A stretch of 27,846 bases of DNA, taken from the IMG/VR virus record IMGVR_UViG_3300025890_000118, positions 1 through 27,846 of that record; one strand, given 5' to 3'. The notes beneath the pieces were generated by a model that worked only from the letters and a program-made list of their open reading frames with translations, searched no databases and was not told the DNA's origin. This document shows positions 998-27,846 of the stretch, in pieces. Positions within the stretch are counted from its first letter, which is position 1. Each line of letters starts with the position of its first letter. The position numbers were made by a program, and so were the translations under genes. The stretch comes from a virus.

Positions 998-1263
998 AGA
1001 AAATATGTAACAGGGCTGAAGAGGCGATAATAAAGTATGCGAATGAACACACACCATGTACGGTGTTAGAAATTTTTGAAGGTGCAACGTTGAAGAGTGG
1101 TAAGTTGTTGAGACTTAGCAATCATTCAATTAACAAGTATAGAATTAGTCACCTATTGAAAAGAAGAAGCGAGTTTAGAGTAGATGATACAATAAAACTT
1201 CACACTTCAAGATACGGTATCAACAGAAAAAGTAACGTTGACGTGTGGGTGAAAGTAAAATGA
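994..1263 (+). CDS. Small basic protein, possible winged-helix DNA-binding
   Basis: This 89-aa protein starts at an ATG overlapping the previous stop, with the strong AGGAGG-type site at the end of the upstream gene. It is basic and has a helix (RAEEAIIKYANEH), a short hydrophobic stretch, then a candidate recognition helix (SINKYRISHLLKRR) followed by strand-like segments (FRVDDTIKLH). That order fits a winged-helix domain. I cannot name a family, so DNA binding is a weak inference. The stop overlaps the next ATG at 1260. Confidence 0.6.
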   Translation: MKKICNRAEEAIIKYANEHTPCTVLEIFEGATLKSGKLLRLSNHSINKYRISHLLKRRSEFRVDDTIKLHTSRYGINRKSNVDVWVKVK

Positions 1264-1598
1264 AAAAGAAAGGTAAAACTCATATGAGCGTAGATGATAT
1301 GATGACGGATGTTGGCTATGCAAAATATAATTCAGATGAAAATATTGACATTGTGTATAGTACGTTCAGGGGTAATTTTAGAGGTGAGATGGAACTAATT
1401 GAAGTTTACATGATGACTGAAGATAATTCCAAGTGTCCTAGTTGTGGTGAAGAAAATACAAAAAGTGCATCAATGATTACTAATTTAGGTAAAATATTCG
1501 CATGTAAAAGTTGTAAGTTGTTTACTTTGGATAGATTAGAAGAAGAACAGTATATAAAAGAACAGAATAAAAAATTAATTAAGATGGAGGAAGAGTAA
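1260..1598 (+). CDS. Zinc-ribbon protein, unknown
   Basis: I chose the ATG at 1260 because it overlaps the preceding stop as ATGA; an upstream in-frame GTG at 1245 would overlap the previous gene more deeply. The protein has 112 residues, with cysteine pairs at C59/C62 (CPSC) and C82/C85 (CKSC), a classic zinc-ribbon spacing. The C-terminus ends KMEEE, where the Glu codons also form the GGAGG site for the next gene. The last 33 coding bases recur downstream at 1924-1956, and a TATA-like element lies inside the gene at 1551-1560. Confidence 0.7.
   Translation: MKKKGKTHMSVDDMMTDVGYAKYNSDENIDIVYSTFRGNFRGEMELIEVYMMTEDNSKCPSCGEENTKSASMITNLGKIFACKSCKLFTLDRLEEEQYIKEQNKKLIKMEEE
1551..1560 (+). promoter_or_regulatory. 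Candidate TATA box inside the upstream gene
   Basis: TATATAAAAG lies in a 19-base stretch (1546-1564) identical to 7943-7961, where it fronts the clamp-loader gene. About 25 bases downstream is 1580, giving a leader of roughly 20 bases that would carry the GGAGG site before the ATG at 1599. Here the stretch is also coding (EQYIKEQ), so the match could be partly chance. Confidence 0.4.
1562..1594. repeat. 33-bp direct repeat, copy 1
   Basis: This copy is at the 3' end of the 1260-1598 gene. It is identical to 1924-1956 and carries the GGAGG ribosome-binding site. Both copies are read in the same frame (QNKKLIKMEEE) and both are followed by a stop. The copies are offset by 362 bases and bracket the ribbon-helix-helix-like gene and the nuclease fragment. 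Confidence 0.9.
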
Positions 1599-1802
1599 AT
1601 GCCAAAACGTAGTGTTCACATACGAAATGAAAATCTAAAGAAGTGGGAGGCTATTTCTGAAAAAAGCGTATGGATTAACAATATTTTATCATCATGGTCA
1701 ATAAAAGACCTTGAGAGACTAAAAACGGAAAACCCTTATTCAAAACTTGAAAGAAGAGTGGCTAAATTAGAGGAACTACTGGATAAGGAGGATAAAATAT
1801 GA
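1599..1802 (+). CDS. Small ribbon-helix-helix-like protein
   Basis: This 67-aa protein starts directly after the previous stop with GGAGG 11 bases upstream. The N-terminus reads RSVHIRNENLKKWEAI, a short strand followed by a helix, then a second helix (VWINNILSSW). That order is typical of ribbon-helix-helix DNA-binding proteins, and a coiled-coil tail follows (LERRVAKLEELLDKEDK). A repressor or antitoxin-like role is possible but not shown; no toxin partner is visible. The stop overlaps the next ATG at 1799. Confidence 0.6.
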   Translation: MPKRSVHIRNENLKKWEAISEKSVWINNILSSWSIKDLERLKTENPYSKLERRVAKLEELLDKEDKI

Positions 1803-1960
1803 GTAAGAGGATAAGTAAGTCATCTTTGGCTACATACGCGTTTTGTCCATATCAATACAAGTTAAGTTACATACATCGTTTACCTAGTATAGAATCAGAG
1901 GCTATGGTAAAAGGAACTAATGTACAGAATAAAAAATTAATTAAGATGGAGGAAGAATAA
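1799..1960 (+). pseudogene. Truncated Cas4/RecB-like nuclease fragment
   Basis: An ATG overlapping the previous stop, with AAGGAGG at 1785-1791, opens a 53-codon ORF. Residues 4-42 match residues 41-79 of the full nuclease at 15871-16836 at 21 of 39 positions without gaps, including KSSL, CPYQY and KGTNV. The match stops exactly where the nuclease has the His of its GTNVH motif. From there the ORF is the copied tail of the 1260-1598 gene (QNKKLIKMEEE). The GxxDR and ExK catalytic motifs and the C-terminal cysteines are absent, so it cannot be an active nuclease. It is still translatable, and a small regulatory or iron-binding remnant cannot be excluded. Confidence 0.8.
1924..1956. repeat. 33-bp direct repeat, copy 2
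   Basis: Identical to 1562-1594. It forms the 3' end of the truncated nuclease ORF and supplies the ribosome-binding site for the gene at 1962. The join with the nuclease part falls within the bases GTACA. Confidence 0.9.
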
Positions 1961-1961
1961 T

Positions 1962-2186
1962 ATGAGTAAAGGGGTTGAAAAAACGAATAAACTACAACCA
2001 TGTTTAATATGTGGAATAGAAATGATTGTTGGAGATAAACCTAATTTTTGTCTCTTCCATCCAAAAGATAGATATGAAGGACATTTAGAAATAGTTGCAA
2101 TGTATAAAAATATGACAGAATGGGAACAAAGTGTTCTGATAAGAATGTTAGAAGAAATAGAACAAAGTTTGGAGGTATTAGAATGA
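1962..2186 (+). CDS. Small zinc-finger-like protein, unknown
   Basis: This 74-aa protein begins with ATG one base after the preceding stop. It has CLIC at C14/C17, then C30 and H33 (FCLFH) and H41, a plausible CCCH zinc site. The C-terminal half is an acidic helix (WEQSVLIRMLEEIEQSLEVL). Before the repeat-mediated rearrangement upstream, this gene probably followed the intact 1260-1598 type gene directly. Function unknown. Confidence 0.6.
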   Translation: MSKGVEKTNKLQPCLICGIEMIVGDKPNFCLFHPKDRYEGHLEIVAMYKNMTEWEQSVLIRMLEEIEQSLEVLE

Positions 2187-2464
2187 CTGAAATTTGGAGA
2201 GATGTATCTTTTGAAGGTAAATGGAAAAACGGTAAAGGTCATGTTGTTCTAAGCCAAATCGAATATTACAATAGGCAATGGATAGACTTGAGAATCATGA
2301 ATGTCCAAAGACCCGTTGGTGAATCCCAACATACAAGACATGGTGTAAGGCTTACACTAGAACAAGCGGAGATGCTTCTTCCGCAACTACAAGAAGCGAT
2401 TATAAAAGGAAAAGAAGAGAGTGAAAAAAATGAAAGAAGAAATAATGAAAATGATAGAAGATAA
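2183..2464 (+). CDS. PC4-like single-stranded-DNA-binding domain protein
   Basis: The ATG at 2183 overlaps the previous stop (ATGA) and has GGAGG at 2171-2175; an earlier in-frame ATG at 2120 lies inside the upstream gene and is unlikely. The 93-aa protein has the strand-rich then helical order of the PC4/Sub1 fold: a strand around GHVVLSQIEYY, then WIDLRIMNV, then a GVRLTLEQAEMLLPQLQEAI helix. The last resembles the 'G-sLtleqw-l--l---I' end of PC4 domains. If correct, it would bind single-stranded DNA during transcription or replication. The tail is highly charged. This is pattern recognition only. Confidence 0.5.
   Translation: MTEIWRDVSFEGKWKNGKGHVVLSQIEYYNRQWIDLRIMNVQRPVGESQHTRHGVRLTLEQAEMLLPQLQEAIIKGKEESEKNERRNNENDRR
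2424..2450. repeat. 27-bp A-rich direct repeat, copy 1
   Basis: Seven As plus the start of an MKEEIMK reading frame, identical to 3399-3425. Together the copies bracket the small gene at 2430 and the GC-rich gene at 2561. A third, shorter match of 19 bases lies at 9053-9071. The sequence is purine-rich and low in complexity, which weakens its value as evidence. Confidence 0.7.
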
Positions 2465-3398: not shown

Positions 3399-3425
3399 AA
3401 AAAAATGAAAGAAGAAATAATGAAA
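3399..3425. repeat. 27-bp A-rich direct repeat, copy 2
   Basis: Identical to 2424-2450. It covers the spacer and first codons (MKEEIMK) of the gene at 3405. Confidence 0.7.
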
Positions 3426-3977: not shown

Positions 3978-4081
3978 ATAACGGAAAATACATAAAACAT
4001 GAAAGTGCAATTGAAAGAAAACTGGATAAGATAATCGAGTTGCTTGAGAAACAGAATAAGTTATTGGAGTTGATTGAATGA
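3974..4081 (+). CDS. Very small coiled-coil protein (35 aa)
   Basis: Both its start (3974) and stop (4079-4081) overlap neighbouring genes as ATGA. The peptide has a heptad-like helix (IERKLDKIIELLEKQNKLL) spanning most of its length and would form a short coiled coil. It may be a subunit or bridging peptide. Function unknown; the double overlap is the main evidence. Confidence 0.5.
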   Translation: MNNGKYIKHESAIERKLDKIIELLEKQNKLLELIE

Positions 4082-4095
4082 TTGACACAGACAAA
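4076..4095. repeat. 20-bp direct repeat, copy 1, at a gene start
   Basis: Identical to 4633-4652. Both copies cover the start codon and the first residues, MIDTDK, of two otherwise unrelated proteins. They flank the GC-rich gene 4078-4638. Confidence 0.85.
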
Positions 4096-4638
4096 GAGAC
4101 ACACATGGATTACGAGGGCTACAAGTTCTACGTGGGAGACCCATGCTACGTGATTGCTGAAAGTAGATGGAGCGAGTTCTGTGACCAGTTGTTTACCCTT
4201 AAGGGATACAAGAAACACGAGGACTACTACGGCACAATCAAGTGGGAAGTAAACGGTCAAACGTACGATGTCGAGTGTCACGCATCACCCAATGGTGATA
4301 ACACGTGGGACTTCCACTTGGAAGATGACTCAGGCACTAAGGTGTCCTTACCTGTTGACGCAGGTATGTTGGCAATCGTGCCTGTGGAGTGTGTGTGTCC
4401 TGAAAAGATGTCAGGTTATGGTAGCATCACTAGCCTAGGTGCGGTGTTCAACACAGAGCCAAATCTGGAGACAACCAATCACAGTTGTGGTTGGGTCGAA
4501 CTCAACGGAGTCAGGGACAGGCAGTACACAGACAACTTGTGTGATGAGTGTGAAAACCATGACTTCAACCTTGAGTATTGTGAACACTACGGTGCTAAAG
4601 TTTGTTGGGGATGCTGGCAGGAGGATGAGGAAGAATGA
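4078..4638 (+). CDS. Virus protein with VGDPCYV domain and zinc-binding tail
   Basis: This 186-aa protein starts at an ATG overlapping the preceding stop. Residues 15-110 resemble a domain common in phage genomes, with FYVGDPCYVI near the start, W31/C35 following, and DAGMLAIVPVE near its end; I know of no assigned function. The C-terminus adds C155, C158, C168, C176 and C179 plus histidines, a probable zinc-binding module. A 60-base sample (4081-4140) is about 47% GC, well above neighbouring genes, with many C/G-ending codons. Flanking 20-bp repeats at both gene starts suggest insertion as a cassette. Confidence 0.7.
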   Translation: MIDTDKETHMDYEGYKFYVGDPCYVIAESRWSEFCDQLFTLKGYKKHEDYYGTIKWEVNGQTYDVECHASPNGDNTWDFHLEDDSGTKVSLPVDAGMLAIVPVECVCPEKMSGYGSITSLGAVFNTEPNLETTNHSCGWVELNGVRDRQYTDNLCDECENHDFNLEYCEHYGAKVCWGCWQEDEEE

Positions 4639-4652
4639 TTGACACAGACAAA
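4633..4652. repeat. 20-bp direct repeat, copy 2, at a gene start
   Basis: Identical to 4076-4095, 557 bases downstream. It spans the start of the gene at 4635. Confidence 0.85.
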
Positions 4653-7936: not shown

Positions 7937-7947
7937 AAAATCAACAG

Positions 7948-7957
7948 TATATAAAAG
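7948..7957 (+). promoter_or_regulatory. Archaeal TATA box before clamp loader
   Basis: TATATAAAAG is in the 40-base gap before the ATG at 7977. Its centre is about 25 bases from that ATG, the usual TATA-to-start distance in archaea, so the transcript is probably leaderless or nearly so. The surrounding 19 bases (7943-7961) are identical to 1546-1564, and ATATAAAAGAAC recurs at 23003-23014. Confidence 0.7.
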
Positions 7958-10369: not shown

Positions 10370-10591
10370 ATGACTAAAAATGATGAAAAACAAGAAATAA
10401 ATATAGAACAAGAGAATATAATGCTGAAAGCCGAAGTTGATAGATTACGAACACTAGCAGGTAATCGTTTAATGATACTGCGAAGGTTAGAACAATATGC
10501 CAATGATAATAATGCATTGTTGGTAAATTTGAGAAACGATTTCGCTGAAGTTCAACAACCCGTTGTTGAAAAAGGTGAATCAGATGAGTGA
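10370..10591 (+). CDS. Small coiled-coil protein
   Basis: This 73-aa protein has a GGTGA site before its ATG and is almost entirely a coiled coil (EQENIMLKAEVDRLRTLAGN). It lies in the replication region and overlaps the next start at 10584. Function unknown. Confidence 0.65.
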   Translation: MTKNDEKQEINIEQENIMLKAEVDRLRTLAGNRLMILRRLEQYANDNNALLVNLRNDFAEVQQPVVEKGESDE

Positions 10592-11291
10592 TTGGACCGA
10601 CCCTAAAGTAGTAGATTGGTGTAAAAGCCACTTCGCACACTCTCCATTAGGTGGAGTTTGGTCGCCGGATGGCACGGGATTGATATTCATGAAGAAAGAT
10701 ACCAAAGAATGGGATTTAGTGGAAGGAGTACAACACCCTGTTTGTATTGATTCGCTGCATGGAATACGTGCTGTTATGTTCGATTTAGGTTACTCTTTGA
10801 ATGAAAAAGATACAAAATGGAATGACCCGCCTGAAACATTAGAAGAAGCACAACGTATGGAAAATGAACAAAAGAGAAAAATTGCTATGTCTTGGGCTGA
10901 CCCCGTAGATGGCACTAAACTAACTGACATGAATCTGTACAATACATTCCCTGAATTTGTAAAGATGGAAGATGTTTTACTAGAAGGCGGTGATACAGAA
11001 CAAGTAGAGATATGGGCTTACAAGTTACTAAACCCTAATACTGGTAAACATGTAGAAATTGACCCTGACGATTATCATCTGTTGACTTCAGATAAAGCCT
11101 TCATGAGATACATGAATAGAGAAGGCGATGTGATACAGGCTTTAACAAGAAAGGAAATGGTAGATGCTGCTGACAATGATGAATTAGGTATACTAATAGG
11201 AAGTGTAGACCCAAAAACAAAGGAAAAAGTTCCTATATGGTTATGGGGTACATATTGTAAAGTCGTAGACTTAAATCAGGAGGAAGAGTAA
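10584..11291 (+). CDS. Unknown protein in replication region (235 aa)
   Basis: The ATG at 10584 has a GGTGA site nearby (10573-10577); the in-frame ATG at 10563 lies inside the previous gene. The protein contains SPLGGVWSPDGTGLIFMKKD and a KLLNPNTGKHVEIDPDDYH stretch, but no motif I can name. It ends QEEE, the codons doubling as the AGGAGG site for the next gene. Its constant place in a replication cluster suggests an accessory replication or repair role, by context alone. Confidence 0.65.
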   Translation: MSDWTDPKVVDWCKSHFAHSPLGGVWSPDGTGLIFMKKDTKEWDLVEGVQHPVCIDSLHGIRAVMFDLGYSLNEKDTKWNDPPETLEEAQRMENEQKRKIAMSWADPVDGTKLTDMNLYNTFPEFVKMEDVLLEGGDTEQVEIWAYKLLNPNTGKHVEIDPDDYHLLTSDKAFMRYMNREGDVIQALTRKEMVDAADNDELGILIGSVDPKTKEKVPIWLWGTYCKVVDLNQEEE

Positions 11292-15357: not shown

Positions 15358-15543
15358 ATGAGTGAGATTGAAGATATAGTAATAAAGAAAATAGAAGCAA
15401 GAGCGAAGTTAGGTGAAAGTAAATATAACACTACAATGGAAAGAACTGATTTATCTCGAAAAGCATGGTTAATCCATGCACAGGAAGAGGCTTTGGACCT
15501 AGCAATTTACTTGCAAAAATGTATAATGTTGGAGGAAGAATGA
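15358..15543 (+). CDS. MazG-like small phage protein
   Basis: This 61-aa protein matches a small helical family frequent in phages, with the pattern 'K-E-R---G--KY--T' (KIEARAKLGESKYNTT), then 'L----W--HA-EEALDLA-YL' (AWLIHAQEEALDLAIYLQK). These resemble one half of MazG-type nucleotide pyrophosphohydrolases; the acidic EExxD pattern could bind a metal. Activity is unproven. It ends LEEE, doubling as a ribosome-binding site. Confidence 0.65.
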   Translation: MSEIEDIVIKKIEARAKLGESKYNTTMERTDLSRKAWLIHAQEEALDLAIYLQKCIMLEEE

Positions 15544-15870: not shown

Positions 15871-16836
15871 ATGAAGTTTAATCCAAACGGTGAATCTTTT
15901 ACAAAAAGTTCTGATTATGCTAATGCGGAAATGATGAAATCGTATGATGAAAGTAGTTATGCTTGGAAGCCAAGTGATGACGGTATACTTAGAATAACTA
16001 AGTCAAGTCTTGGTGATTTTAACTGGTGTCCATATCAATACTATCTTACTAAAATACTAGGTCATAGAGGTGAAGAAACTGAACATATGATAAAAGGAAC
16101 AAACGTACATGATGTTTGTGAATACTTTTGGAAAAATGTGGATAGTGTTTTACCTGAAGTATTAGATTTAATAGAAGAAGAAAAACACCTTCTTGGTTAT
16201 GATAAATTAAAGTCAGTAATACCAAAACCACCATCACCTTACATGTATGGTGAAGATGCAATTATTGATACTTGGTTGAGATGGCAATGGGATAGATTAC
16301 TTGTTACTAAAGGCAAAGATTGGAAGCCTGTTGGTAATGAAGTAGAAGGACACGCTAGAATAGAAGTAGAAGTTGACGGTAAGTTATATCCTGTTCATTT
16401 GAAAGGATTCATCGATAGAATCTTTTCAGATAGTGAAGGAGGCTTTGTGCTTATGGAATTGAAAACTGGTAAATGGAATCCAAAGAAAGCAACAAGTATG
16501 CGTACAGAAATGCAATTCTATAAAATGTTATTAGAAGAAGGTAACATGGAAGAGTTTCTACCTGTCACGCATTGGGCATGGGAATTTCCTGATGGTGATG
16601 TAAGAAATGGTACAAAGAAAGAATGGGAGATAGAAGAAATAGGTACAAGGAAGACAAAGTATGCACCTAGAACAGTTAATAATAGAGTAAAAAAACTAGT
16701 CGAAGCACATGTTAAAAATGAATTTCCACCAATACACAAGGACACTTGTAAATCGTATTGTAGGCATGAGAACTTATGTTCATGGTGCGACTTTATGGAT
16801 TTGTGTCCGTCTTGGAACGGGGGTATAAAAATATGA
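15871..16836 (+). CDS. Cas4/RecB-like Fe-S nuclease (PD-(D/E)XK)
   Basis: This 321-aa exonuclease-type protein has the motif order of the RecB/Cas4 family: KSSLGDFNWCPYQYY with C53, KGTNVH with H80, GFIDR with D182, MELKTGKW with E196 and K198, and a Gln motif (Q215). A Cys cluster follows at the C-terminus (C293, C297, C303, C306, C312). One N-terminal plus at least three C-terminal cysteines fits a 4Fe-4S cluster as in Cas4 and AddB. It would process DNA ends during replication or recombination. No cas1/cas2 or CRISPR array is present. Its N-terminal region has a broken relative at 1799-1960. Confidence 0.88.
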   Translation: MKFNPNGESFTKSSDYANAEMMKSYDESSYAWKPSDDGILRITKSSLGDFNWCPYQYYLTKILGHRGEETEHMIKGTNVHDVCEYFWKNVDSVLPEVLDLIEEEKHLLGYDKLKSVIPKPPSPYMYGEDAIIDTWLRWQWDRLLVTKGKDWKPVGNEVEGHARIEVEVDGKLYPVHLKGFIDRIFSDSEGGFVLMELKTGKWNPKKATSMRTEMQFYKMLLEEGNMEEFLPVTHWAWEFPDGDVRNGTKKEWEIEEIGTRKTKYAPRTVNNRVKKLVEAHVKNEFPPIHKDTCKSYCRHENLCSWCDFMDLCPSWNGGIKI

Positions 16837-19175: not shown

Positions 19176-20576
19176 ATGAGAGCAGCGAAAGATTATCAAG
19201 CAGTTAAAAAATTCCCGATATTTGCAGGATACATTGACCATTTCAATCAAACATCTATTGATAATGACATACCGGGTATGCTATCATTCTTCTTTATACA
19301 AGGTCAAGTATCAGTACCTTACATTAGAATACCGTGGGGTTCAAGTCATTTAGACCCTAGAGTACACACATTTTGGATTCAATCTAGTAGGACTGGTAAA
19401 TCTATCGCATGGGAATTTATTGGTGATGTATTAGGTGACATTGGTGTACCTTCTGACCTTTTTACTACTGGTACAGACGCTGGACTTATTGGCGGATTCG
19501 ATGTTATACAACACGAAGATGGTAGTAAAGAAGATGTATTGAAAGAAGGTATGCTTGGAGGTAGAAAAGCATTGAACTTTGATGAAGGGTCTATCATACT
19601 TAATCCTAATAAACACAGTCAAGAGACTGTATTGTATCTACAATCCGCTTGTAATCCTGTTGGAAGTAACAACAATAAATTGGTAAAACATACTAAAGTA
19701 GGACGTATAGAAACTGAGTCATTAGTATCTTTATGGATTACTACTTATCCACCTAGTGGAGTTAAAGAATACGTATTAACGAAAGGGATATTTCAAAGAG
19801 TATTGTTATATTGGTCTCACTGGAATTTAGATAGAAGGAAAGCAGTAAGCCACACAAGAAGCGAATCTGCATTTAAAATTCAACCTAAAATGAAAATCAG
19901 TTATGACGACATAACAAGTTACTTCAAAGGTTTAGAAGTAAAATTAAGAAATAAAGTATTAGAAGAAACGCAAACAACGTTTGTTGAATGGAATGACATG
20001 GATAGAGATAACCAAGAAGACTTGGTTCAATCTTGTATGAGTAAAGTGTTTTCAGCAGAAGATGCTACTTTCTATCCCGCATTATATGATGCCATTGAAG
20101 ATTACTATGAATTGTTAAACGGTTTGAATCCTGCGATTACAGAAGTAGTCGCATCGTTTGTACCCGCAATGGAAAATAATACAGTTATCTTTGCTACTCA
20201 CATGGCTATGTTAGATAATTCATGGATTGTTACAGGCGACCATGTTGATATGGCTAAAGATATACTGTATGATTTATTTAAGGCTCTAATTTTATGGTTA
20301 GAAGATGAAGTTGAGATAGGTCCAAAGGTTGCACAAAAAGCACAACAAAGAGGAAAATGGGCTATTGCAGCACAGCAAGTTGAGAAAATAGAATTAGGCA
20401 ATAAAGGTGATGGTTGGCAAATGAAGACCAAAGTTATCAAGGTTTATGAAACTCAAAATGATTGTTCACGCGGTAGTGCCTACAACAATTTTGATAAGTG
20501 GGGCGAATCTTTGTTTGATGTAGCGAAGGATGGGCGTACAGTGTTCATTCGACTCAAAGAAGGGATTGACAAATGA
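19176..20576 (+). CDS. Helicase-like P-loop ATPase, likely replicative
   Basis: This 466-aa protein has a P-loop QSSRTGKS (69-76) in which the first Gly is Gln, Walker B ALNFDEG (132-138), a polar sensor-like stretch SLWITTYPP (185-193) and a candidate arginine finger GIFQR (204-208). This order resembles DUF3987/RepA-type and other virus replicative helicase ATPases; MCM signatures (zinc site, IDEFDKM) are absent. The C-terminal part is helical and could be a winged-helix region. With primase, polymerase and exonuclease nearby, DNA unwinding is the likely role, but this is inference. The stop overlaps the next start (ATGA). Confidence 0.65.
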   Translation: MRAAKDYQAVKKFPIFAGYIDHFNQTSIDNDIPGMLSFFFIQGQVSVPYIRIPWGSSHLDPRVHTFWIQSSRTGKSIAWEFIGDVLGDIGVPSDLFTTGTDAGLIGGFDVIQHEDGSKEDVLKEGMLGGRKALNFDEGSIILNPNKHSQETVLYLQSACNPVGSNNNKLVKHTKVGRIETESLVSLWITTYPPSGVKEYVLTKGIFQRVLLYWSHWNLDRRKAVSHTRSESAFKIQPKMKISYDDITSYFKGLEVKLRNKVLEETQTTFVEWNDMDRDNQEDLVQSCMSKVFSAEDATFYPALYDAIEDYYELLNGLNPAITEVVASFVPAMENNTVIFATHMAMLDNSWIVTGDHVDMAKDILYDLFKALILWLEDEVEIGPKVAQKAQQRGKWAIAAQQVEKIELGNKGDGWQMKTKVIKVYETQNDCSRGSAYNNFDKWGESLFDVAKDGRTVFIRLKEGIDK

Positions 20577-21178
20577 GTAACATAATGGCATTAGATATAG
20601 AAACAACAAATTTTTCTTGGGAAATAGGAGGGTGGAATAACAAAAATATGTTTGATACTTCAGTAGTAGCAACATGGAATGGCGATGAAGCACATATATT
20701 TTCTAAGGAAGATGTTTCCGTAGATGGTGCGATTATACACCCCTTACACCCAAAAATTTTAGGAGACCACATTACAAAACATATACAAGAAGGAGGACAG
20801 ATTTTGGGACATAATATCATGGGTTTTGATTTTCCTGTATTGAAAGAGTCATTAGACTGTTGGGCTATTGGAGATGCCATGAGCAAATCCGAAAATATTA
20901 TTGATACTAAAAATTTAGTTGCTAAAGCGGCAATTGGAAATAAGATAGAAACTACATTACAATCACTCTCCACTCATACATTAGGTATGCAAAAAAGTAT
21001 GTCCAGTGTTGATGCTCCTACTGCTTGGAGAAATGGTAAATATAATGAAGTAGCAGAATACTGTCTTAAAGATAGTAAATTAACATTCGATTTGTACATG
21101 TATGGAAAAGACAATGGGATTATAAAATCTAGGTCTTTAGATACAGGTGCGATAATCGACATAAACGTAGAATGGTGA
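20573..21178 (+). CDS. DEDD-family 3'-5' exonuclease
   Basis: This 201-aa RNase H-fold exonuclease has Exo I LDIET (D8, E10), Exo II GHNIMGFDFP (N81, D86) and Exo III YCLKDSKLT (Y163, D167), the DEDDy pattern. It resembles the proofreading domain of family B polymerases more than bacterial DnaQ. It may supply extra proofreading or trim DNA or RNA ends. It is coupled to the helicase-like gene by an ATGA overlap. The polymerase already has its own exonuclease domain, so this one is additional. Confidence 0.85.
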   Translation: MSNIMALDIETTNFSWEIGGWNNKNMFDTSVVATWNGDEAHIFSKEDVSVDGAIIHPLHPKILGDHITKHIQEGGQILGHNIMGFDFPVLKESLDCWAIGDAMSKSENIIDTKNLVAKAAIGNKIETTLQSLSTHTLGMQKSMSSVDAPTAWRNGKYNEVAEYCLKDSKLTFDLYMYGKDNGIIKSRSLDTGAIIDINVEW

Positions 21179-23552: not shown

Positions 23553-26500
23553 TCAATCAAACTCCACGAACATTTGTCCTACAACATCACCCATATCTAC
23601 ACTAGCGGCATCTGTTCTTTGTATTCTAATTTCATCTCCGGCGGCAAAGGCAAAGTTAACAACTACACTTCCCTGATATATTGTACTTGAGTGACTTGTC
23701 GCCGCTATAACCATATGAGCATCCCCTGAAACTCCTGTATCATCTTGTGAACCACCTTTTTGTACTGAAAGTGCAAAATGGTCAGTTCCGGCAGTTCCAC
23801 CATTGTTGTTATTTCTATTTATCTTCCAAGTTTGTTCTGCCGTACCAGTAACTTCCTGATTCCTAGTATTTAATGCCAACATTTTGACTCTCCCCGTTTT
23901 AGGCATAATGTATCCCCAATGATTTTGACTTGAAGAATAATCATTTGTTGTTGCTTTTAGATTTACTGCACCGGAGTTCATATCACTTCTATTCCACGTA
24001 TATACTACGCAAGTGTTAAGATTACCTAATGAAGATTGAATTGCTCCATCATCCTTAATTGTTAGTTTAGTAGATACTGCTCCCACTGTTGTACCTGTTT
24101 GGAACTCTAAGTAACCACCTCTTCCACTAGCGGCTGACATAGCATTTATTGCCGCACCAACTCCTGCTCCACTACTATCTACATTATGGAAATCAATTCC
24201 TGTATATTTAGTATCGGCGGGCATTGAAGCATTACCATTCTTTAATGTTAGAGTCGAAGATGTTCCCGCAGAAACAGTAGATACTCTCAATGCTTCTGTG
24301 CTTACAGTATCGTCATCATCATTAATTTCAGTAAGTAATACAGAAAGATACCCACCTTTATCTGTGGTAGCGTGGTTTTCAGAAGCATAACCAACAAGAG
24401 CGACAGATGCTTCTGTTATTTTGCTAGGAATATTACCATCATTTGAATCAAAACCAATACCACCAAGCATATTGCTTTCAACCGTAGAAGTATCATTTCT
24501 TGTTATCAGTATGCCTTGCTTGCTATCAGCCATATTTCCGTGAATATGTAGTAGAGAAGAAGGAGTGCTAGTGCCTATTCCAAGCCTACCATTGACGTAC
24601 GCACTATTGTATGCTTGGGCCGCACCCGAACCCCCACCTGTTAATCTTAGAACTTCTTCCAATACTAATTGTTGACCACCCGTATCGTTAGCATCACAAT
24701 AGAAAGACATTTGACCTTCATTAGTAAGACTTGAACCTGTTGATTGATAGGCAATCCTACCATCAGCAGTATCAGTTCTGAATGTGATACCTGCAAAAGA
24801 GCCGTCTGTTGTTGATGCATTCTCAATATATAATCCACCGCCTTGAGCATTAGCCCCAATAGCACCTGCACCGGAAGATGAATTATTACCTTGTGGGTCA
24901 GTCCTGTTATCTGTGTATTTAAGATGAAGTGGGAACAATGGGGCAGTAATACCTATTCCAACATTACCTGTATCTTGTTTTATAGTAATGCGTGTTTCTG
25001 TACCACTATTTGTACCTAGTATTAAATCTTCTGTAGAATATGAAGACAAATTTCCATATGTTCCATTACCATTTATTATTACAGGTTCATTAAAATAAAA
25101 TCTACCTTGACTTCCTAATATATGATTCCAACTAGAACTTGTACTTCCTAATTTTAAAGTACCATATTGGGTTCTAATTTTTAATTGCCCACTGTCTTCT
25201 CCTACGTGAACTTTTGCTAAGTTAGAAGGAGCGGCAGTAGTATCTCCTGTAAGAATCATATAACTAGACAATGTTTTTACTCCGGCTATGGTTTGGTCGC
25301 CGCTAGTATAAACTCCATTAGTTACCGTATCAGCATTTCCGGTTACATCACCCGTTAAATCACCTGCAAATGCAGTAGCGGTTACAGTACCACTAACTTG
25401 TAATGCAGTAGAAGGACTTGTAGTACCTATTCCTACATTACCTGCTGAATCAATCCTCATCCTTTCTATTGAATAGTCATAATCTTCGCCCCTTGAAGTT
25501 TCAGACAAACTTCCTGTGTTGAATGTTAAAGCGTGGTGTGAACCACTCCAAGCAGTTTTAGGTGCGCCGATAGATGCCATAGTCCTAGTAGTAGCATCTG
25601 CCTCATCTCTAAACAAGATTTTACTATGGTTGGTAAAATTACTACTTGTTTGATTATTTAATTGGTCGAACATTAAATTACCTTTAGAGAGATGCAACAA
25701 ATCTTCAGGACTTGTAGTGCCTATTCCTACCTTACCACTACCACCCGAACCATCGAATGTGATTTTACTAGTTCCAATCCAAGAAAGATGTAATTTATTG
25801 ATGGTATCTTGTACTATTGACCATCTTTCATCTCCGTTTTCTTCAAAGAGAATTGCACCCGAACCACTTGTAGCATTAATTGTTTGAGTGGAATTTGCTC
25901 CTGCTAATTCTAACAAAGTTGCAGGACTCGTAGTGCCTATTCCGACTTTACCCGAAGAATCAATTCTCATCTTTTCTGACCCATTTGTATTAATCCGAAG
26001 GGAGTTATCTCCGTGATAATAAGATAAACGCCCAACCGCATTTGCGTCAGAATCAGCAAATAAAACTCCGCTATATCCGTTTGTTGCGTTGCCTGTCAAT
26101 TGCATATACGCATTAGTAGTAGATGTAATTTCTAAGTTGTAGGTAGGGTTTGTTTCTCCTATTCCGACTTTACCATCATGAGTTATTCTCATTCTCTCTG
26201 TATTACCATCATCGCCAGCGTCGTTAGTGGAGAATACTAAGTTTGCATCGTGATTAGCCGCAGTAGAACTTGCACTTGTATCTCTTACTGCCGATATTGA
26301 AGCACTTAAACTATCAGAATCTGATTCTGTGCTAACATCAAATCCAATACCTGCAAAAGCATCAGTAGTCACTGTATTATTTCTAAGTAACAACAATTGT
26401 CCAGAAAGTTCATTCGTGTTAGCAAATGTTGTATTATCGGCAAACTCAAGATGTAGTAAAGCAAGTGGGTTACTATCACCTATTCCTACATATCCTGTGG

Positions 26501-27846
26501 TCTTATGTATGTTGAGGTTAGTAGTTGCTAGGTCATTCGTTCCACCAAAACTTCCATAATTCGTTTCGGAGACAACATAGATAGTAGTATCATTATCTGC
26601 AATAGCGATAGATGCCATATTGTCAGTTGACTCAAACTTCGCCACGCCATTACTACCACCCGAATTAACGTGTAATGTATTGGAAGGACTTGCAGTTCCT
26701 ATTCCGACACTACCACTATCTTGAATCCTCATCTTTTCTGAACCGGAAGTTTGGAAATTGATTGCACCACCTGTACCAACATTTGAACTATCGGCACGAA
26801 TACTGAGATTCCCATTATTATTCATAATGCGAGCCATTGGGTCATTAGTAGCATCACTATCTACTAATTGTAGTTGAGGTAAAGAACCACTTATTGCTGC
26901 TATACCTGCACCATCATAAGTAAAGGTTGCTTCACCGTTTAACCCGGTAGAACTAGTGGCAGTAATTATTCTATTATTAGCCCCATTAGCGAAAGTAAAC
27001 GGACCAAAATTATTGTCATTATCGAAAGCAGAAAGAGGAATTTCAGAAATTAATTTTCTTTTATCAGCACCATTGTCTAAAATGATTAATTCATCTTCAG
27101 TTCTAGCAACAGCCTGTGTCATATCTGTTAATTCAGACATATCTAAACTAAGAGTATCACCGGATAAGGCAAGTCCAACACCTGCGGCCAAATTCGTGTT
27201 GTCACTTATATCAATAGCACTAAGTAAAGCCATACTACCTAGACCTAAATTAGTTTGTGCGTTTGTTTTTTGTGTACCACTTAATCCTTGACTGTTAGTA
27301 TCAACTCTAAGTCTATTACCTAACGCGGTAGTCATAGTGCCTGTAAAATCAGCATTATCATTGATTGCTGCTGCTATTTCATTTAATGTATCTAATGCTC
27401 CGGGTGCACCATCAATTAAACCTGTGATTTCTGCATCAACGTATGCTTTAATGGATTGTTGTGTGGCTATATGAGTAGCAGAATTAGAAGCCATATTATC
27501 TTCATCTTTAAGTCCTGCAATGTCAGATAAATCTCCTGTTGCTATCGTTATAGATGCAGAACCATTGAACGACTGTCCTGCAATATTTCTTGCAGTAGCA
27601 AGAGTAGTAGCAGTATCAGCATTACCTGTAAGAGCACCTACAAAATCGGTAGATGTGATTGAAGATGCATTGGTCATCACTTGGCCATCTACACGTATTG
27701 AATCAATAACTATATCTCCAGTACCATTAGGTGATAATTGTAAGTCGCCATTAGAATTTGTAATAGATATTGTATTACCATCAATCCTAACATTGTCAAT
27801 ATTGGCTTGACCATTAGATAACTCAAGATTACCATCTGTAAGAGAG
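23553..27846 (-). CDS. Giant tail fibre / receptor-binding protein, 5' end cut off
   Basis: The frame stays open to the window edge, giving at least 1,430 residues; GTG at 27680 is only an internal codon. The visible N-terminal part has DGNTISITNSNGDLQLSPNG-like repeats, then LSDIAGL, SIKAYVDAEI and LDTLNEIAAAIND segments, all typical of fibres of marine tailed viruses. The middle has eight copies of a motif like GKVGIGTTSP, often preceded by MRIDSSG, each starting a beta-rich repeat. The last 150 residues are strand-rich and could be the receptor-binding tip; no S74 intramolecular chaperone domain is apparent. It should sit on the tail and bind the host surface. Late gene converging on the plus-strand genes. 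Confidence 0.93.
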   Translation of the reverse strand, partial: SLTDGNLELSNGQANIDNVRIDGNTISITNSNGDLQLSPNGTGDIVIDSIRVDGQVMTNASSITSTDFVGALTGNADTATTLATARNIAGQSFNGSASITIATGDLSDIAGLKDEDNMASNSATHIATQQSIKAYVDAEITGLIDGAPGALDTLNEIAAAINDNADFTGTMTTALGNRLRVDTNSQGLSGTQKTNAQTNLGLGSMALLSAIDISDNTNLAAGVGLALSGDTLSLDMSELTDMTQAVARTEDELIILDNGADKRKLISEIPLSAFDNDNNFGPFTFANGANNRIITATSSTGLNGEATFTYDGAGIAAISGSLPQLQLVDSDATNDPMARIMNNNGNLSIRADSSNVGTGGAINFQTSGSEKMRIQDSGSVGIGTASPSNTLHVNSGGSNGVAKFESTDNMASIAIADNDTTIYVVSETNYGSFGGTNDLATTNLNIHKTTGYVGIGDSNPLALLHLEFADNTTFANTNELSGQLLLLRNNTVTTDAFAGIGFDVSTESDSDSLSASISAVRDTSASSTAANHDANLVFSTNDAGDDGNTERMRITHDGKVGIGETNPTYNLEITSTTNAYMQLTGNATNGYSGVLFADSDANAVGRLSYYHGDNSLRINTNGSEKMRIDSSGKVGIGTTSPATLLELAGANSTQTINATSGSGAILFEENGDERWSIVQDTINKLHLSWIGTSKITFDGSGGSGKVGIGTTSPEDLLHLSKGNLMFDQLNNQTSSNFTNHSKILFRDEADATTRTMASIGAPKTAWSGSHHALTFNTGSLSETSRGEDYDYSIERMRIDSAGNVGIGTTSPSTALQVSGTVTATAFAGDLTGDVTGNADTVTNGVYTSGDQTIAGVKTLSSYMILTGDTTAAPSNLAKVHVGEDSGQLKIRTQYGTLKLGSTSSSWNHILGSQGRFYFNEPVIINGNGTYGNLSSYSTEDLILGTNSGTETRITIKQDTGNVGIGITAPLFPLHLKYTDNRTDPQGNNSSSGAGAIGANAQGGGLYIENASTTDGSFAGITFRTDTADGRIAYQSTGSSLTNEGQMSFYCDANDTGGQQLVLEEVLRLTGGGSGAAQAYNSAYVNGRLGIGTSTPSSLLHIHGNMADSKQGILITRNDTSTVESNMLGGIGFDSNDGNIPSKITEASVALVGYASENHATTDKGGYLSVLLTEINDDDDTVSTEALRVSTVSAGTSSTLTLKNGNASMPADTKYTGIDFHNVDSSGAGVGAAINAMSAASGRGGYLEFQTGTTVGAVSTKLTIKDDGAIQSSLGNLNTCVVYTWNRSDMNSGAVNLKATTNDYSSSQNHWGYIMPKTGRVKMLALNTRNQEVTGTAEQTWKINRNNNNGGTAGTDHFALSVQKGGSQDDTGVSGDAHMVIAATSHSSTIYQGSVVVNFAFAAGDEIRIQRTDAASVDMGDVVGQMFVEFD
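24560..26725 (-). repeat. Eight GIGT-type repeats inside the tail fibre
   Basis: Coding repeats near 24575, 24955, 25425, 25715, 25940, 26160, 26480 and 26705 encode variants of VGIGTTSP followed by a short hydrophobic strand (e.g. ALLHLE, TLLELA). On the plus strand they appear as recurring AGTGCCTATTCC-like sequence. Spacing is irregular (about 220-470 bases), so repeats have diverged or been shuffled. Confidence 0.85.

Follow-up and report, generated by a model that had tools for sequence, protein, structure and literature searches.

A short stretch of a metagenomic virus genome, positions 1562–1960 of the IMG/VR record IMGVR_UViG_3300025890_000118, carries a piece of a nuclease gene joined to a copy of the end of another gene through an exact 33-bp direct repeat. 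The whole record, a single metagenomic virus record of 27,846 bases, was analysed and is called the window here; its genes are named by their first positions. The comparison with related viruses indicates that this stretch is likely to be a recombination scar between co-infecting magrovirus-like viruses. In three relatives (L006, L007, and L008), the gene found at 2183 in the window comes immediately after the small gene 1260, i.e., the native junction expected under boundary-sequence mosaicism is preserved in them. At this seam, the window contains about 580 extra bases made up of segments matching three other lineages, and the fit of the imported segments to these lineages (96.5%, 84%, and 96.8%) is far better than that of the genome background, again as expected of mosaicism.

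The original prediction had proposed a recombination that replaced the rest of a nuclease at this locus. The recombination is borne out by the three relatives with gene 1260 joined straight to gene 2183, but the replacement is not, as the relatives that have the locus all lack a nuclease at it. The prediction would have been refuted by a site never occupied by a full-length nuclease together with a conserved short reading frame. A full-length nuclease was indeed present at the site in no relative; the short reading frame was not conserved either.

The window proteins matched to Pfam include DNA_pol_B, ERCC4, a clamp-loader-like AAA ATPase, and a TCP-1 chaperonin, and an archaeal-type replication module with PolB and an ERCC4 nuclease is thus present. 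Both PolB and ERCC4 are near-universal in magroviruses (PMC10160649). Judged by its sequence, the gene set is consistent with the magroviruses, viruses of Poseidoniales (marine archaea). No relatives of the window were found in a collection of annotated phage genomes with the DNA and protein queries used, and two scans of prokaryote genomes, one with the nuclease and one with gene 1260, gave no match.

The chimeric reading frame and the duplicated leader

The 33-bp sequence ACAGAATAAAAAATTAATTAAGATGGAGGAAGA occurs at 1562–1594 and 1924–1956, with no further copy in the record, and is the longest exact direct repeat in the window. Only three exact direct repeats of at least 20 nucleotides (nt) are present in positions 1–23300 (33, 27, and 20 bp), while the longest one in 100 third-order Markov simulations was at most 18. 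The reading frame is the same in the two copies and gives QNKKLIKMEEE, with the Shine-Dalgarno sequence GGAGG included. The repeat search therefore confirmed the earlier claim that an exact 33-bp repeat containing the ribosome-binding site joins the open reading frame (ORF) 1799–1960 in frame to the tail of gene 1260. The claim that the last 11 codons were copied was also upheld, with the final codons differing synonymously (GAG versus GAA); the identity comprises 32 of the 33 final coding bases and the one base preceding them.

The 53 residues encoded by ORF 1799–1960 include 42 nuclease residues, which correspond to residues 38–79 of the intact enzyme encoded by the window itself at 15871–16836. 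The ORF matches Pfam PDDEXK_1 with a score above the cut-off, and the alignment showed that 21 of 39 residues are common to it and the intact enzyme, in agreement with the earlier assignment of the ORF to the N-terminal Cys region of a nuclease. The proposed switch at the catalytic His motif was likewise confirmed: the nuclease sequence ends one residue short of His80, which is invariant in an alignment of 35 distinct full-length or near-full-length nucleases, and the duplicated tail continues from there. Neither the catalytic residues nor the full cysteine set are present in the ORF. It retains C53 only, one of the four cluster cysteines, and lacks His80, Asp182, Glu196, Lys198, the three further cysteines, and the first ~37 residues. 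A functional nuclease was rejected because the required residues are missing.

The nuclease piece is 85% identical at the protein level to the nucleases of L003/L004, the next best match being 66%. Since it resembles the nuclease of another lineage (84% at the nucleotide level) and not the copy of the virus itself, the piece is cargo from elsewhere. Compared with the donor-like nuclease, it has 13 synonymous and 4 amino-acid-changing codons, as if it had diverged within a working enzyme and been broken late. Most likely, ORF 1799–1960 is a dead, non-functional hitchhiker fragment.

The intact enzyme shows what has been lost. H80, D182, E196, and K198 are invariant in 35/35 aligned nucleases; C53 is present in all 34 with sequence at that position, and C303, C306, and C312 in 35/35, which gives one N-terminal and three C-terminal cysteines (CxxCx5C). 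The enzyme therefore combines the PD-(D/E)XK core and N-terminal His with the four-Cys pattern of the Cas4/AddB-type iron-sulfur nucleases. Its structure model (predicted local distance difference test, pLDDT, 87.6) gave fold matches to AdnA, the Cas4-family protein ACE1, the Cas4 protein SSO0001, EXO5, and RecE. The score against the curated Cas4 model TIGR00372 was 32.7 bits, below the cut-off of 65, so that "Cas4/AddB-type" is a fair name, and the scan of window proteins against Pfam recognised no cas gene. The intact gene shares the His, Asp, ExK, and four-Cys pattern with the Cas4/AddB/EXO5-type PD-(D/E)XK nucleases, whereas ORF 1799–1960, a short N-terminal part only, is no nuclease.

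Nine related records and 42 loci retrieved by a nuclease profile were surveyed for further nucleases. None of the nine records has a second one: each carries a single nuclease at the usual replication locus, and a further, weak hit in G003 (E = 0.006) came from gene 1260 itself, matching the copied tail. The nucleases of the 42 loci were at the usual replication locus as well.

The original prediction had spoken of the tail of a gene. A gene end is indeed duplicated, but the copy is more than that, namely the downstream edge of a predicted promoter, a leader, and a Shine-Dalgarno sequence. The final 16 residues of gene 1260, for which a longer form with a GTG start at 1245 is possible, are QYIKEQNKKLIKMEEE, and its last 16 codons consist of CAGTATATAAAAGAACAG, the leader, and GGAGGAAGAG. 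The same promoter core lies 32 nt before gene 7977 and also upstream of genes in G003 and G004/G005, and a relative of gene 1260 in L012 (44% identical) ends before the tail. Because the TATA motif precedes other genes and the L012 relative has no tail, the tail is best read as a predicted promoter, leader, and Shine-Dalgarno sequence that happen to be open in frame. Several proteins of the window end in EEE (gene ends 1598, 1960, 11291, 15543, and 15698), as the Shine-Dalgarno sequence GGAGGAAGA of the next gene serves as their last codons.

An extended predicted promoter sequence common to several genes of one virus, as in the early regulons of archaeal viruses, was found here. The sequence around the TATATAAA core differs from lineage to lineage and recurs before several genes in each: ACAG-TATATAAA-AGAACA in the window (1548–1565 and 7945–7957), G003, and G004; TTAG-TATATAAA-GGTCTA in G009 (5 copies); GAC-TATATAAA-TAAATTAAGTA in G001 (3 copies); and TGAC/TGGC-TATATAAA-CCGAGATTGA in G006 (9 copies). 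The promoter flanks of equivalent genes differ between the related G004/G005 and G009, as if all promoters had changed together. This suggests a putative lineage-specific viral regulator.

Sources of the extra DNA and the joins

Outside the window, the gene-1260 locus turned up in no more than four contigs, and in one of these gene 1260 is divergent and has other neighbours. Gene 1599, the first imported gene, comes closest to the L009–L011 group (Table 1), and yet only 1–3% of the window could be aligned to this group at ≥70% identity, with core genes mostly 63–76% identical where aligned. Gene 1599 is itself an insertion in that group, being absent from L082/L083 and present in L084/L085/L100 between flanks that are 93–97% identical; in the L084 group, it is inserted at the seam GGAGGAAGAGTAG. 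The single-sequence model of its product (m50c7f5dfd7eb, pLDDT 81) is all-helical. A ribbon-helix-helix assignment made by eye was set aside, as the model has a low predicted template modelling score and there is no convincing family match. At the right-hand end, positions 1948–2450 match L012 with 96.8% identity; in L012, this segment is preceded by another gene.

At the left join, the window follows L006/L008 upstream and L009 downstream. This join and the L012-like join share GGAGGAAGA, which contains the ribosome-binding site, and the short sequences TGGAGGAAGAGTA and GGAGGAAGAATAAT are thus common to both sides of the respective joins, as boundary-sequence mosaicism would require. The join of the nuclease piece to the duplicated tail shares 2–3 nt. 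ACA is shareable there only if the donor read GTACA, as does the nuclease of the window itself; since the exact donor is unsampled and the closest sampled one reads ATTCA, only CA is certain. The earlier suggestion that genes are shuffled at ribosome-binding sites in this virus is supported by the two joins at the GGAGGAAGA seam and by the general clustering of breakpoints at such sites described below.

Table 1. Positions of the genes, repeats, and joins considered in the window.
Feature	Position	Strand	Basis or remark
Gene 1260, small zinc-ribbon-like protein	1260..1598	+	weak zinc-ribbon Pfam matches, under cut-off
Predicted viral promoter motif CAGTATATAAAAGAACAG	1548..1565	+	51 nt before start of gene 1599
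33-bp repeat, first copy (promoter edge, leader, Shine-Dalgarno)	1562..1594	+	exact repeat search
Left join TGGAGGAAGAGTA, gene-1260 tail / L009/L084-lineage DNA	1585..1597	+	13 nt common with L009
Imported gene 1599, MPKRS..., 67 amino acids (aa), predicted helical	1599..1802	+	1572–1773 96.5% identical to L009–L011
Chimeric 53-aa ORF, nuclease piece and duplicated tail, predicted inactive	1799..1960	+	alignment, Pfam
Internal piece of Cas4/AddB-type nuclease gene, other lineage	1807..1921	+	84.3% nt identity to intact nucleases of L003/L004
Join of nuclease piece and duplicated tail, about 1922–1926	1924..1926	+	at most ACA shareable
33-bp repeat, second copy (leader and Shine-Dalgarno, without TATA box)	1924..1956	+	exact repeat search
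Seam GGAGGAAGAATAAT, duplicated tail / L012/G009-like segment	1948..1961	+	sequence common with L012
Accessory gene MSKGVEK..., 74 aa, CxxC protein	1962..2186	+	elsewhere in L012 only, 86% aa
PC4-like gene MTEIWRDV..., native right-hand neighbour of gene 1260	2183..2464	+	weak Pfam PC4 match, under cut-off
27-bp repeat AAAAAAATGAAAGAAGAAATAATGAAA, first copy	2424..2450	+	repeat search
27-bp repeat, second copy	3399..3425	+	975-bp unit between copies missing in G009
20-bp repeat GAATGATTGACACAGACAAA, first copy, gene start MIDTDK	4076..4095	+	repeat search
20-bp repeat, second copy, gene start MIDTDKY	4633..4652	+	repeat search
GGAGGAAGA seam after gene 10584–11291	11279..11287	+	gene relocated in G009
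GGAGGAAGA seam after gene 15358–15543, small, conserved	15531..15539	+	many alternative right-hand neighbours
Intact nuclease, usual locus, 321 aa	15871..16836	+	all catalytic residues and four cysteines present

The native arrangement and the donor matches come from direct comparison, and the order of the steps is one that we infer from them. A replication or repair end at the seam would have paired with the same GGAGGAAGA seam of another virus. Gene 1599 would then have been copied, along with a stretch of nuclease gene taken either from this donor or from a further one. Two or three matching bases would have led the end back to its original template, some 30 nt upstream of the point of exit. 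Such an upstream return would duplicate the leader and the Shine-Dalgarno sequence and truncate the nuclease at its catalytic His. In a separate event, the segment with genes 1962 and 2183 would have been exchanged with a G009-like virus, with the left edge at the seam. Template switching between co-infecting viruses, or strand-annealing repair between them, is the process that we favour; unequal recombination between two alleles of the locus could give the same end product. The product was probably kept by selection, because each downstream gene retains a Shine-Dalgarno sequence and gene 1599 lies directly behind the predicted promoter.

Seams elsewhere in the genome and competing explanations

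The exact repeats of 20, 27, and 33 bp are all located at gene starts. The 975-bp unit enclosed by the 27-bp repeats is precisely missing in G009, where a query made of the joined flanks matched over 327/327 nt, gap-free, at 89%. Gene 10584–11291 has moved from one seam to another in G009, where it lies at 20092–20796, immediately ahead of the homologue of gene 1962; its old site is a scar near 28050 with the flanking genes intact. The seam after gene 15358 is a hotspot, followed by at least nine different downstream genes in relatives (L059–L100).

The start MIDTDK(Y) or MIDIDKY is common to several otherwise different accessory genes (window 4078 and 4635, and their equivalents in L006, L008, L012, and G006). 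Most other repeats in the window come from a long fibre-like ORF on the minus strand (23553–27680), rich in VGIGTTSP-type repeats. A transposon was rejected, as no recombinase was seen among the genes involved and there are no inverted ends; the unequal lengths of the direct repeats (33, 27, and 20 bp) and their location at gene starts also disfavour it. A tRNA attachment site was rejected because the window has no tRNA.

Nine of the 23 breakpoint clusters in the window lie within 20 nt of a GGAGG, against 0.95 expected, with a similar excess in three relatives. Each genome was compared with its own rotations, which does not remove shared ancestry, and families were hence counted once in a later count. 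All this could be due to selection only. Illegitimate breaks would then fall anywhere, the survivors would be those joined at gene boundaries, and the Shine-Dalgarno match would be a by-product of translation and no guide. We give this explanation a real but minority chance. It accounts for the enrichment of breakpoints at all gene boundaries, for the many other junctions that switch too (119 of 443 pairwise comparisons), and for the nuclease-tail join that is almost without homology. It does not account for a motif shared beyond the part pairing with ribosomal RNA: AAGA follows GGAGG at 29 of 148 start-proximal sites, while the next commonest 4-mer follows it at 6. Neighbours were switched in 24/46 comparisons at the seam, compared with the 119/443 elsewhere, and junctions with GGAGG but without AAGA (21/72) switched no more than others. 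The long exact repeats at gene starts are also unexpected under selection only.

Several points weigh against the favoured reading of a recombination scar. The switching excess of GGAGGAAGA becomes modest once orthologous junctions are counted once (4/5 versus 18/51 and 4/4 versus 14/32, both small samples), and the seams fall on gene boundaries, the very places at which breakpoints are expected from selection alone. The window is known from one metagenomic record. Positions 1774–1806 have no convincing source, the best being a weak match of 18/19 nt at a gene start in L006. No contig showed the predicted intermediate, with 1598 joined to 1962. Among the sampled viruses, none has gene 1599 beside a donor-like nuclease, so that one event and two cannot be told apart.

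On balance, an active guiding role of the GGAGGAAGA seam in exchange is plausible but unproven, and selection for intact genes contributes. More doubtful is the wider idea that the seam, namely promoter, leader, and Shine-Dalgarno sequence, serves as a landing site. Near-identical short seams at gene starts would then actively guide the exchange of single-gene cassettes, some of them behind lineage-specific early promoters and expressed early as accessory, possibly anti-defence, genes.

The original prediction implied that this lineage once carried a complete second nuclease behind gene 1260, which a deletion later truncated. This is improbable. The fragment does lie between repeats, and a longer insert could have come first, but no relative with the locus carries a second nuclease there, the piece lacks the first ~37 residues of the enzyme too, and from the seam on, the right-hand side follows G009.

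It is very unlikely that the 53-aa ORF encodes a functional small protein, e.g., a shortened nuclease domain acting by DNA binding or by interference with a different nuclease. Its frame is open, it has a good Shine-Dalgarno sequence (AAGGAGGATAAAATATG), it would be co-transcribed, and its synonymous/non-synonymous pattern is conservative. However, such a pattern is expected from a past inside an intact enzyme, the ORF was found in no relative examined, either at the locus or elsewhere, and residues 38–79 include one of four cysteines and no catalytic residue.

Finally, an assembly or amplification chimera, which a single metagenomic record and the confusion of short-k assembly by a 33-bp repeat might suggest, is hardly credible, as the left and nuclease-tail joins share 13 and 2–3 nt, below the usual assembly k-mers, comparable rearrangements occur in other contigs, some as several near-identical records, and the segments are 84–97% identical to the sampled donors and therefore not simply taken from known contigs.

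Relation to known mosaic genomes

The origin of mosaicism in phage and virus genomes is an old question, and to our knowledge visible guide sequences at the joins are rare. This uncultured archaeal virus group offers likely source lineages, native sites, filled and empty pairs, and the joins for direct comparison, and the boundary-sequence idea can be tested with the 9-base seam GGAGGAAGA by counts in a larger genome set. The locus is also a warning for annotation: short ORFs and conserved C-terminal tails here can be promoter or ribosome-binding DNA read in frame.

We found no earlier description of such exchange in magroviruses in a search mostly of open-access literature, and the magrovirus survey (PMC10160649) does not mention recombination or mosaicism. 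A look for T4 promoter stem-loop cassettes in the literature gave no usable comparison. Promoter repeats within one genome, often before small accessory genes, are described in passages on virus-specific early regulatory sequences of archaeal viruses (PMC11065993) and on the intergenic promoter repeats of halovirus HF2 (PMC8707807). Those passages do not tie the repeats to insertion sites, and the promoter described here is a predicted one.

The Start Associated Sequences of Cluster K mycobacteriophages (PMC3203893) are similar in being a 13-bp repeat that contains a Shine-Dalgarno sequence, precedes unrelated genes, and is conserved beyond the pairing with ribosomal RNA. The passages concerned propose a role in translation, not gene swapping, and the seam of the magroviruses, shorter at 9 nt, falls within the last codons of the upstream gene.

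Gene exchange through short shared sequences at module edges is a hypothesis cited by Pope et al. 2011 (PMC3029335), and in the window such a sequence is visible at several joins. The same paper describes gene 68 of mycobacteriophage Island3, an extra gene after gene 67 whose C-terminal 18 residues are close to those of the upstream gene; its authors attribute this to recombination at ~50-bp sequences, which they compare with boundary-sequence recombination. Island3 is a bacterial phage, whereas the magrovirus repeat is 33 bp long and consists mostly of promoter leader and Shine-Dalgarno sequence, and the inserted ORF in the window is a recognisable broken enzyme for which a likely source lineage was found. 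Boundary-sequence mosaicism is thus known in phages, with Island3 as a close precedent, and the window is a new example of it in an archaeal virus group.
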